Positions 9,501 through 34,166 of a stretch of 64,000 nt of DNA are shown here, piece by piece; positions within the stretch are counted from its first letter, which is position 1; each line of letters begins with the position of its first letter. The DNA is from Prosthecobacter sp. SYSU 5D2 (GTDB taxonomy: Bacteria; Verrucomicrobiota; Verrucomicrobiia; Verrucomicrobiales; Verrucomicrobiaceae): NCBI RefSeq assembly GCF_039655865.1, contig NZ_JBBYXL010000007.1, positions 186,001-250,000 on the forward strand, given 5' to 3'. The position numbers and the translations under genes were made by a program. The notes under the pieces are model-generated. The model was not told the DNA's origin, searched no databases, and saw nothing but the letters and a program-made list of their open reading frames with translations.

Positions 9501-9974
9501 ATGAACCGAGTCGGCATTGGCTATGATGTACATTCCTTTGAAGAAGGCCGCCCCCTGATCCTGGGCGGCGTGGAGATCCCGCATACACGAGGGTTAAAGG
9601 GGCATTCGGATGCGGATGTTCTCTGCCACGCGATCGCGGATGCCCTGCTCGGGGCCATGGGCCTGCCGGACATTGGCTTTTACTTTCCGCCCACGGATGC
9701 CAGCATCGAAGGCATCTGCAGCCTGCGCATCTTGGAGAAGTGTGCTGAACTGGCCAAGGAGAGAGGTTATACCATCACCAATGTGGACTCGTCCCTGGTG
9801 GCCGAAGCACCGAAGGTCATGAAACACGCGGCAGCGATGAAGGAAAAAATCGCCGCCGCCCTGGGCATCACGCCGGACCAAGTGGGTGTGAAGGCGACAA
9901 CGAACGAACGCATGGGCTTTGTCGGCCGGGAAGAAGGCATCGCCGCGATGGCGGTGGCCGGAGTGGAGAAGTGA
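9501..9974 (+). CDS. ispF: 2-C-methyl-D-erythritol 2,4-cyclodiphosphate synthase
   Basis: A 157-residue full-length IspF, which cyclises CDP-methylerythritol 2-phosphate with release of CMP in the non-mevalonate isoprenoid pathway. The metal-binding residues are visible in GYDVHSF (residues 7-13) and in LKGHSDADVLCHAIADALLG. DIGFYFPPTD and TTNERMGFVGREEGI are the conserved later motifs. The protein is a cytosolic trimer in known cases. It stands alone, followed immediately by a hairpin repeat and a convergent gene. Confidence 0.97.
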   Translation: MNRVGIGYDVHSFEEGRPLILGGVEIPHTRGLKGHSDADVLCHAIADALLGAMGLPDIGFYFPPTDASIEGICSLRILEKCAELAKERGYTITNVDSSLVAEAPKVMKHAAAMKEKIAAALGITPDQVGVKATTNERMGFVGREEGIAAMAVAGVEK

Positions 9975-9975
9975 T

Positions 9976-9998
9976 GCGGACGAGGGCGTCCGCTCTCC
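9976..9998. repeat. GCGGACG hairpin repeat between convergent genes
   Basis: GCGGACG/CGTCCGC with loop AGGG (9976-9993) begins two bases after the ispF stop and fills the gap to the convergent gene. It belongs to the same repeat set as 2009-2026, 2073-2090 and 11063-11080, and could serve as a bidirectional terminator. Confidence 0.7.
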
Positions 9999-10000
9999 GT

Positions 10001-13000
10001 TTAGAGGCGCTTGTTTTGGAACTGGCGGCTGTGGACGATGGCGAGGACGGCGGCGGAGAAGCGGCCTTCGTTCTTGGAAAGACCGGTCTTGATTTCCTGC
10101 ATGAGGAACTTGTCAGTGGGGAGAAGCTGGCGGCCGAGGGCGAAGCCGATGAGCTTGCGGGAGAAGTGACGGGTGAGCTGGTCATCCTGAGTTTTCAGGT
10201 AATCGCGCAGGCCTTCGAAGCCAACGAACTTGGCACCGCCTTTGACCTGGCCGGAGGTATCAAGAGGAAGGCCGGATTCATCCTTTTCACGGTAACGACC
10301 GATGGCATCAAAACCTTCCAGAGCGAAGCCGAGGGGGTCTATGCGGTCATGGCAGCCGGAGCAGGATTTGGAGGCGCGGTGCTGCTCCAGCATCTCACGG
10401 ACGGTGGTGGGCCTGGGGCCGTGTTCCTTGAGCTCGGGCACATCGGCGGGAGGCGGTGGGACGGGAGTACCCAAAACGGCTTGGAGCAGCCAGTTCCCCC
10501 GCAAGACGGGGCTGGTGCGGTGGCTGCGGGAGGTCTTGGTGAGGAGGCTGCCCTGGCCTAACAAACCGCCGCGATGCTGGGCGCTGACGCTGACTTTACG
10601 GAACTCCTCGCCTTTGACATTGGGGACGCCGTAGTGCTTGGCCAGGCGTTCGTTGAGATAGGTGTAATCGGCACCGATGATCTCCTGCACGGGGCGGTCT
10701 TCGCGGATGAGGCTGGTGAAGAAGAGGGTGGTTTCACGGTCGAGGTCGCGGCGGAGCTCGGGGGTGAATTCGGGGAACTTTTTGTCATCCACGGCGGCGT
10801 GTTTGTCGAAGCCTTTGAACTCCAGCCACTGGCCGGCGAATTCTTTGGCCAGGGCTTCGGCCTTCGGGTCCTTGAGCATGCGCTTCACCTGGGTGGTGAG
10901 GACTTCGGGCTGGAGGAGCGTGCCATCGGTGGCGGCTTTGCGGAGCTGCCAGTCGGGCTGGGAAGACCAGAGGAAGTAACTGAGGCGGGAGGCGAGCTCC
11001 CAGGCATTGAGGGAGACTTCGGTAGGGTTTTCGGAAAGGGAGATCGTTTGGCCTGCGGCTGAGCGGACAGGAGTGTCCGCGCTCCTCTGGGAGACTTCGG
11101 TGGGTTTTGTGGAGGAGGGGGTCTTTTGAACTTCGTTTTGGCGGGCAAGAGTGCCCGCCGTACTTGTGAAGCCTTCGGTTTTGTAGAGGAAGTTGGGGGA
11201 GACGAGGATGAGGGTGACCACTTCGCGGGCGGCGGATTCACGGTCCATACCTTTGGTTAGGCCGTCATGATAAAGCTTGGAAAGCTGGGTGCGCTCGGCC
11301 TGGGTGGTGGGGCGGCGCCAGGCCTGGCTGGCGAAGCGGTGCAGGTGCTGGCGCATGAATTCATCGTACTGCGCGGCCTGCTCTTTTTTGAGGGTGTCAC
11401 GGACGAGGAAGTTCCAGTCAGTCTTCATCTGATCGAGGCGTTTGGCCTCGGCAGCGGGGATGATGGACTTGAGCTGATCGTCGCTGAAATAATAAACGCC
11501 GGGGCCGGGTTTGTCGCTGTAGGCATTGCGGGCGACTTCTTCCAAGCGGCGCTCCAGCATGTCCGGGAAGGCAGCCTTCATGCGGCTGAAATCGGCCATG
11601 GTCTTGCGATGGGCATCGGTGTTGCGTTTCCATACGGTGAGGACACCGGGGATGATGTCCTTTGGGTTAGGCGGGGTTCCCACCCTGAGGGTCCACTGGA
11701 CAGTGGCGAGGTCCACCTCGGGGCTGCGCATGTCCAGGCGGCCAGCGCCGAAGACCTCGACGGTGTCTTCCGGGAGGGGCAGGGTGATGATGAGGGGGGC
11801 CTTGGCGGCGAGGACATTTTCGGCGATGCCGTTTTTGCCGAGGGGGTCTTTGCCAAACCAGGAAAGCGCCTTCTCTGCCTGGCCGATGCGTTTTTTCAGC
11901 AGATCGGCCGTGATGCCTTTGGGGGCGGGTTTCCCGGATTCAATGTCTTTGAGGAGCTTTTGATCGCCTGCCCGCTGCTGGCGCATGAAGGGGGCGTATT
12001 CGTAGTTTTTGCCGCCTTTTTTTCGGAAGGTGAGGCCGGTGAAGGTGACGTAATCACCACCGTTGCCATCACCGATGTCTCCCAAAACGACGTGGAATTC
12101 GCGAGCGCCCTGGGTCAGCACGCGGGAGCCGCCATAGGTGCGAATGCCATCGGCATCCTGCTGGCGCCGCTGGGTGCCACTGCCCGGTTTGTCGGGATGA
12201 TTCCAGGAGTGGCGCTGGACCTGGATGGCCTTGACGCCAGCGAGGACCTGCGGGGGCACTTCATGCGGTTTGGCGGCATCTGGCGGCGGCAGTTTGCGCC
12301 AGGGGACTTTGGTGAGGTCCAGGAAACGGGACTGGGTTTTGGTGTCGTTGAGGAGGTTCCACCAGTTGTGCAGGAAGGGGGCGGAGAGCTTGGCCTCTTT
12401 GGCGAGCTGGTCCAGCGAAGCGGCCCCGGTGAGGTCTTTGTGCTTCCATTTCCAGCAGGCCAGCAAGTATTCGTCCTCGCGAAGCTCGCGGTCATAGGTG
12501 GGCAGATGCGGGCCGGACATTTTTTGGTACCAGACGTAGAGGGCTTGCTGGGCCTGGCTTTTGACCTGGGCATTGCCCCGCATGCCGATGCGCTGGGGAT
12601 GGAAGGTGACGCCAGTACCGGGAAGGATGGTGGCGTGGTCGGCCAGCTTGCGGGCGGCGGCGAGGTATTTGTCGAGCTGGGAGGGATTGACGAAGAGAGT
12701 GTCGCCGGTGTTGGCGAAGCCTTCGCCCCCGCCGCCGTCGGGCTGGAATTCTTTGGCCAGGCCGTAGTCCACGCCGGTCAGGTCGCGGATGGTGTAATCA
12801 TACTCGGCATTGGTGAGGCGGCGGAGGGTGACAGCCCCGGGATCGCCGGCATTGGCGGTGGCGACGGCATCCATGGAGGCATCGGCCCAGGCGATGAGGC
12901 TCTTTTTTTCTTCGGCCAGAAGCTGGGTTTCATCCTCTGGCGGCATCTCGCCCGAGGCGATGACGTGGCGCACCTTTTCCCAAAGGGCGTATTCGTTTTC

Positions 13001-19269: not shown

Positions 19270-19288
19270 CGGGACTTGGCAAGTCCCG
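19270..19288. repeat. Hairpin repeat after the VWA gene
   Basis: CGGGACTT-GGC-AAGTCCCG is a perfect 8-bp stem followed by CTCC, between convergent gene ends. It fits the window's hairpin family and may act as a bidirectional terminator. Confidence 0.6.
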
Positions 19289-32620: not shown

Positions 32621-32646
32621 GCCGACGGATCGTCGGCGCTCCATGG
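32621..32646. repeat. 26-bp hairpin repeat, copy 2 (3' side of eboE)
   Basis: GCCGACG-GAT-CGTCGGC followed by GCTCCATGG, identical to 1977-2002 and 34049-34074. It lies 15 bp beyond the eboE stop codon. Confidence 0.85.
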
Positions 32647-33836: not shown

Positions 33837-34166
33837 GGGTGGGAACGGGGGGACGGAAGGTGAAGGGGGAGTTTGCGGTGGTTGGCGGTGGTTTGCAATG
33901 GTTTAGGGGGAGGTGGGCAGTGTGCGGTTTTCAGTATGCGGTTTTCAGTGGTGGGGGAGACGGAGACGGGGGCGGGGGCAGGAGTGCGCGGTGCTCGGTG
34001 CGCAGTGAGGGGAATTGGTGGCTTGCCCAAGGGGGAGCAGTTTTTTTTGCCGACGGATCGTCGGCGCTCCATGGATGGCGCTGTGATTTGGGCGGGAATA
34101 AACGGGCGGGAGATGCGTTTGAACCAGTTCACGTTTTTATCCTGAGCCTTAACCTGCCGCCGATCC
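33837..34166. other. Spacer made almost wholly of short repeats
   Basis: No gene is seen. The 330-bp spacer upstream of the divergent eboE and 1328-residue-protein genes contains near-tandem GCGGTGGTT/GGCGGTGGTTTGC units (about 33878-33905), two adjacent 14-nt TGCGGTTTTCAGT units (about 33921-33950), GGAGACGGAGACGGGGGC runs, a T8 tract, and a 26-bp hairpin repeat at 34049. Promoters for both genes must lie in it, but none is clear. Confidence 0.5.
34049..34074. repeat. 26-bp hairpin repeat, copy 3 (5' side of eboE)
   Basis: GCCGACG-GAT-CGTCGGC followed by GCTCCATGG, in the same orientation as the copy at 32621, so the two bracket eboE as direct repeats 1428 bp apart. It directly follows a run of eight T residues. 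Confidence 0.85.

Follow-up and report, generated by a model that had tools for sequence, protein, structure and literature searches.

Two hairpins in an interdomain linker of a Prosthecobacter DUF1592-type gene: probable REP sequences beside flank repeats of apparently local origin

Two short perfect hairpins, hp1 and hp2, lie in frame within the interdomain linker of a DUF1592-type gene in the 64-kb stretch of Prosthecobacter sp. SYSU 5D2 DNA analysed here (the window), and are most probably REP sequences (probability about 0.85), the second copies of host sequence found beside them being most likely of local origin rather than a duplication made by insertion. REPs serve RAYT (TnpA-REP, HUH) transposases as substrates, in the form of single-strand hairpins. 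The first-pass annotation of this DNA had regarded the hairpins as mobile-looking palindromes bounded by direct repeats, and had proposed that such palindromes generally enter genes with a target duplication, outside the RAYT/IS200-type biology of REPs. Hairpins related to hp1 and hp2 bear REP-like tags, occur in many copies, flank RAYT genes in relatives and occupy the same sites in several species, and no general target duplication accompanies them.

The hairpins and their host gene

Both hairpins are found exactly where they had been annotated (Table 1), hp1 being formed by GCGGACA/TGTCCGC with a 7 bp stem and hp2 by GGCGGGCA/TGCCCGCC with an 8 bp stem, each around a loop of 4. In gene sense they follow one another as GTAC-GGCGGGCACTCTTGCCCGCC (hp2), 54 bases, and GGAG-C-GCGGACACTCCTGTCCGC (hp1), in identical orientation, and thus do not form a REPIN, in which two inverted REPs make up one unit; inverted REP pairs do occur elsewhere in the genome, for example at C3:323927 and C12:23813 (contig:position). 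The ORF translation bears out that the block is in frame with the host gene, whose protein contains DUF1587/1595/1592/1588/1585 and an N-terminal planctomycete cytochrome c domain according to Pfam. Both hairpins lie within the codons of the DUF1595-DUF1592 linker, where they would be translated in the cell into predicted read-through peptides of the SADTPVR and AGTLAR type. A predicted structure, used for the linker only (mean pLDDT of 51, nine sequences, long low-confidence stretches elsewhere too), displays a low-confidence stretch at residues 671-723 between better-predicted domains, and the linker is presumably flexible.

Table 1. Positions, in the window, of the host gene, the two hairpins, their flank copies and a neighbouring REP.
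Feature	Position	Strand	Basis or remark
Host gene, 1063 aa	10001..13192	(-)	ORF + Pfam PSCyt1, PSD3, PSD5, PSD4, PSCyt3, PSD2
Linker codons, residues 674-727	11012..11173	(-)	between PSD5/DUF1595 (614-673) and PSD4/DUF1592 (728-856), Pfam
hp1 as REP: tag GGAG 11082-11085, then C, hairpin 11063-11080	11060..11085	(-)	model match 40.0 bits
hp2 as REP: tag GTAC 11160-11163, hairpin 11140-11159	11138..11163	(-)	model match 33.0 bits
Host flank copy, ACCGAAGTCTCCC in gene sense, TEV codons before LNAWELAS	11011..11023	(-)	sequence match
Second copy of ACCGAAGTCTCCC flank	11089..11101	(-)	among four orthologues compared, <=2 mismatches only here
Host flank 5' of hp2, TCCTCTACAAAACC, LYKT codons	11177..11190	(-)	sequence match
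Near-copy TCCTCCACAAAACC	11103..11116	(-)	among four orthologues compared, only here
Another REP of the family, GGAGA-GCGGACGCCCTCGTCCGC	9973..9998	(-)	between 3' ends of host gene and ORF 9501-9974

Comparison with orthologues indicates that the linker is a variable spacer, present without hairpins too. Its length is 57 aa here, 53 aa in the orthologue from a Prosthecobacter sp. MAG (L075, 81-82% identical) and 78 aa in that of the relative G018 (79% identical), the latter two having no hairpin, so that the annotated gain of about 55 residues is not sustained; in 19 further aligned orthologues (~50-55% identity) only a short linker is found. Among the matches listed in a search of genome contigs L075 was the close orthologue, the other 79 kept loci being at most 42% identical. 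The protein of G019, 83% identical, carries both hairpins at the corresponding positions; their stems, GTGGGCACTCCTGCCCGC and TGCGGGCACTCCTGCCCGCA, differ from those here, and the counterpart of hp2 is tagged GTGA instead of GTAC. Degenerate, relict hairpins in L075 were also considered and set aside as unproven, the alignment of its linker to this genome being equalled by 60/200 shuffles; when aligned with G019, 0/200 shuffles were as good.

The hairpin family and its RAYT neighbours

Searched with a covariance model of the hairpin, the genome gave 97 matches at E<=10 and 50 at E<0.01, a many-copy short hairpin as REPs are, with weak matches undercounted because 150 of 6879 first-look candidates were scored. 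From these 97 matches 86 were entered in the table and 84 recovered, the 11 weakest being left out. The 84 recovered places display recurring 5' tags, GGAG, GTAC and GTGA, corresponding to the conserved tetranucleotide at the foot of REPs but differing from the canonical GTAG. GCGGACA-N4-TGTCCGC is found 12 times in the genome, versus 0 for the reversed pattern, and with up to two mismatches it has 5 matches in the window versus 0.44 expected. The earlier view of the palindromes as repeats of a mobile type, sitting in frame inside a gene, is supported.

Copies of two classes flank RAYT genes in relatives. A RAYT of G018 (L328, 216 aa, MPNHVHVLF) has on one side GGAG-C-GCGGACACTCTTGTCCGC (40.8 bits) paired with an inverted partner, and on the other another copy (31.9 bits). 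At a RAYT of G019 (L338, 215 aa) inverted GTGA pairs lie to either side, and the arm AAAACGAAGGCC belongs to one of them. These were found among 30 loci fetched for the 34 Y1_Tnp matches of G018, G019 and G016, a model match at E<=0.1 being present in 4 of the 30. The own genome has 10 Y1_Tnp loci, and none of these yielded a RAYT with this hairpin class on both sides; only L035 had a model match at E<0.1, lying ~950 bases away from its domain match. For the GTAC class no RAYT was found among these 10 loci and the 30 of the relatives. Considering that the tags and the RAYT flanking in relatives are REP/RAYT anatomy, the placement of the elements outside RAYT/IS200-type REP biology is not supported.

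Around the IS200-like transposase gene of L035 (G000:C8:99967-103311) there are four copies of CTACTCCTGCGGAGTAG (at 930, 1269, 2172 and 2585), and this locus is possibly another REPtron. The own-genome RAYTs L036 and L038 are flanked by copies or close variants of two other GGAG-tagged families, both also present in the window: GGAGC-GCCGACGATCCGTCGGC (1977-1993, 32621-32637 and 34049-34065) and CAAGGAG-CGGGACTTGCCAAGTCCCG (19270-19288).

Direct repeats around the hairpins

The direct repeat annotated around hp1, 20/21 bp with copies 78 apart, is real and clearly above chance. Its core is GGGAGACTTCGGT, found on both sides of the hairpin, and in gene sense it reads AAAACCC-ACCGAAGTCTCCC / AAAACCCTACCGAAGTCTCCC, within a weaker 47-nt match whose local score of 23 was equalled by 0/300 controls from the same locus and by 63/22400 controls pooled across all loci. 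It belongs to a longer similarity of 78-bp period that takes in the hairpins. The repeat reported for hp2, 17-20 bp with copies 40 bp apart, is weaker than described, being a marginal match of 13/14 bases, 74 apart (p 0.03-0.04). Part of this hp2 "flank" may be element, since REP-arm-like sequence follows GTGA hairpins elsewhere: after hp2 the gene reads AAAACGAAG, AAAACGAAGGCC stands behind a GTGA hairpin next to the RAYT of G019, and at C4:430670 a GTGA hairpin is followed by AACGAAGGCC. Taken as a whole, the two-hairpin block has outer flanks without significant likeness (score 11, p 0.16).

Within the linker region, ACCGAAGTCTCCC with at most two mismatches has two occurrences in this genome, a single one in both G019 and L075 and none in G018, and TCCTCTACAAAACC with at most three mismatches occurs twice here, once each in G019 and G018, and not in L075. 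According to the annotation an insertion-free orthologue should carry one copy of each flank, and this is not contradicted by the hairpin-free L075, with one ACCGAAGTCTCCC, or G018, with none; G019, however, bears both hairpins and ACCGAAGTCTCCC once, the place of the second copy reading CCGAATAAGACTCCC. Having the hairpins with one clear copy per flank, G019 suggests that the second copies are specific to the genome studied here or have decayed in G019, and, unless the latter applies, that hairpins and flank copies are separable.

Flank similarity and empty sites across the genome

Flank similarity was evaluated for 55 hairpins, comprising 53 isolated ones and the two of the host gene, with 60-base flanks and a null taken from the same loci. 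The mean score was 8.02 versus 8.06 at random places of those loci, with 2 hairpins at p<=0.01 (0.6 expected), 4 at 0.05 (2.8 expected) and 4 at 0.1 (5.5 expected). Scores of at least 18, found in 123/22400 pooled control draws, were reached by 2 of the 55 versus ~0.3 expected, which is a weak excess. A cross-locus null with 80-base flanks had given a mild enrichment (12/53 at a score of at least 11, reached by 8% of the null), but it was replaced because it ignored local composition, and the enrichment vanished with the same-locus null and the shorter flanks.

Out of 56 hairpin clusters of at least 22 bits, 29 were inspected in alignments with relatives (26 surveyed, plus C3:342893, C5:391447 and the host gene, with 47/49 flanking-gene fragments in the queries). 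Seven sites, picked by eye, could be aligned on both flanks with one or more relatives empty at that place, and the others were shared, decayed, replaced or unclear. Six of the seven lack a duplication: C10:246903 (flank score 7, aligned with G019 alone), C13:119801 (7), C3:323927 (7) and C3:460461 (8), these last three being empty in G019 and unclear in G018, together with the coding sites C12:146940 (9) and C4:94322 (9, covering the second of its two hairpins only), where the linker sequence of relatives differs as well. The seventh, C2:440743 (score 18; L048, upstream of the ORF at L048:1613), has a REP between two similar ~34-bp copies, and in G018 and G019, which lack the REP there, a single copy is present; no other of the seven is like this. 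The first 330 residues of the gene downstream of it, probably a citrate synthase gene, served as query. Comparing 100-kb stretches of G018 and G019 with the window region gave results too patchy for finding empty sites.

In view of the flank test within loci and the survey of empty sites, a general mechanism of target duplication is rejected: the genome-wide excess of flanking duplications that the annotation had anticipated does not appear with the same-locus null, and one copy in the empty state with two in the filled state, the mark of a target site duplication, is not regularly seen. The duplicated host sequence around hp1 and hp2 seems to be a peculiarity of this genome at this place and not a general insertion signature. 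C2:440743 does fit insertion with duplication, so the idea may survive for rare cases.

Alternative explanations

The 78-bp periodicity could also mean that one REP was inserted and that a 78-bp tandem duplication of this hairpin and its downstream sequence followed, the copies then diverging. Such a history, which we consider unlikely, is consistent with the two units aligning over ~70 nt, hairpins included, with a score of 32 versus a gene-null maximum of 19 (56 draws), with the units of this genome being 77% alike without the hairpins, and with cross-species unit comparisons being equalled by 0 to 3 of 300 codon shuffles. On the contrary, the hairpin tags differ (GGAG versus GTAC, with GTGA in G019), each fitting a separate class, and the G019 units without their hairpins show no significant likeness (78/300 shuffles as good). 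Less probable again is the model of the first-pass annotation, a non-autonomous element that enters at staggered breaks tens of bases apart and leaves a long target duplication. The local outlier hp1, between two similar 47-nt stretches, the 34-nt copies around C2:440743 and the two hairpins at score 18 speak for it, but it has to face the absent general flank excess, the six empty sites without duplication, and G019, whose hairpins lack clear second flank copies, along with the outer flanks of the whole block, which are not significantly alike. As a general rule, staggered-break duplication is already disfavoured. We give similarly little credence to a restricted form of it, by which some REPs enter via opposite-strand nicks tens of bases apart, filled in so that 30-50 bp are duplicated, with fast decay leaving C2:440743 and hp1 as visible survivors.

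Selection on the transcript, by which the hairpins would be RNA structures and not mobile repeats, appears highly improbable. Four hairpins intact both here and in G019 comprise 27 stem pairs with 11 substitutions and no broken pair, the changes being five two-sided and one one-sided, and hp2 has a fold z of -4.8. Nonetheless, these four were chosen for being intact in both species, so the figure is biased and does not bear on how frequent decay is; the hairpin is absent or decayed in other relatives, C9:79298 being apparently decayed in G019; the fold z of hp1 is only -1.2; no T run follows the stem at hp1 or hp2; and the same hairpin sequence is scattered across unrelated genes. Judging from the stems compared, they can change by compensation or by re-copying.

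For the preferred reading as REP sequences, hp1 belongs to the GGAG-tagged class and hp2 to a GTAC-tagged class near the GTGA one, both in sense orientation, and a RAYT would mobilise such hairpins as single-stranded DNA. The REPs probably reached the linker in an ancestor shared by this species and G019, their stems having afterwards been altered by compensatory substitution or re-copied, and the 13-bp and 14-bp second flank copies would most likely derive from local tandem duplication or patchy conversion.

Relation to known systems

The elements share with REP/RAYT (TnpA-REP) systems, REPtrons and REPINs a short hairpin, a 5' tetranucleotide, many copies, inverted pairs and copies flanking Y1 HUH transposase genes. 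They differ from REP/RAYT systems in that a RAYT flanked by this class was found in relatives and not in the own genome, and in their tags, GGAG, GTAC and GTGA here versus GTAG/GTGG in the portions of PMC6006769 and PMC8266576 drawn upon; no word beginning 'ggag' occurs in the main text, as far as available, of these two papers and PMC3733652. The available parts of the latter (2013) describe REPs inside ORFs of several species, GTAG ones being most numerous in O. terrae, itself a verrucomicrobium. Some ORFs have two insertions, and dimers or groups encode 20 to 30 residues. The hairpins studied here are alike in lying within an ORF, encoding residues, being two in one ORF and occurring in a verrucomicrobium, and unlike those REPs in that the latter are GTAG- or CGTC-tagged and that DNA synthesis and repair genes are stressed there. 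Intragenic, translated and even double REP insertion being already known from those parts of PMC3733652, the finding in the window is largely an ordinary case. Our literature search on palindromic or REP sequences in Verrucomicrobia returned that paper only, and none was found on Prosthecobacter transposases with palindromic repeats.

As palindromes in frame within an ORF, hp1 and hp2 also resemble Rickettsia palindromic elements, for which the consulted part of PMC10969869 gives ~150 bp versus ~26 nt each here. With MITEs having target site duplications they share being short, non-autonomous and scattered, and differ in showing no consistent target duplication. What is still of interest is the cross-species occupancy of the same sites with compensatory stem changes, the non-GTAG tags and the one duplicated site, and the filled and empty sites of the survey allow a direct reading of the footprint that REP insertion leaves.

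REPs in other genes

Eight hairpin-bearing proteins were scanned. Pfam matches were obtained for seven, each with its hairpin outside the best domain stretch, at most 15 residues after it in three cases. In a HEAT-repeat protein (L062; orthologues L230, L222 and L225) the same linker holds REPs here (three hairpins) and in G018 and G016 (inverted pairs), a possible remnant in G008, and none in G019, G001 and G023. The linker of a DUF7133 protein has REPs here, in G018 and in G019, and none in G001, G023, G008 and G016, while a GDSL-DUF7133 protein has them only here and in none of the five relatives aligned. REPs in the same linkers of several species, with stems that change yet stay paired, would offer material on how they persist, be it by selection, re-copying or repeated insertion.

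At three coding sites, C6:192938 (L182), C7:23417 (L069) and C7:96886 (L184), the sequence that a relative carries in place of the REP is unrelated to it and of the same or almost the same length, which looks like replacement of host sequence by the REP rather than addition; the first two cases were recognised by eye.
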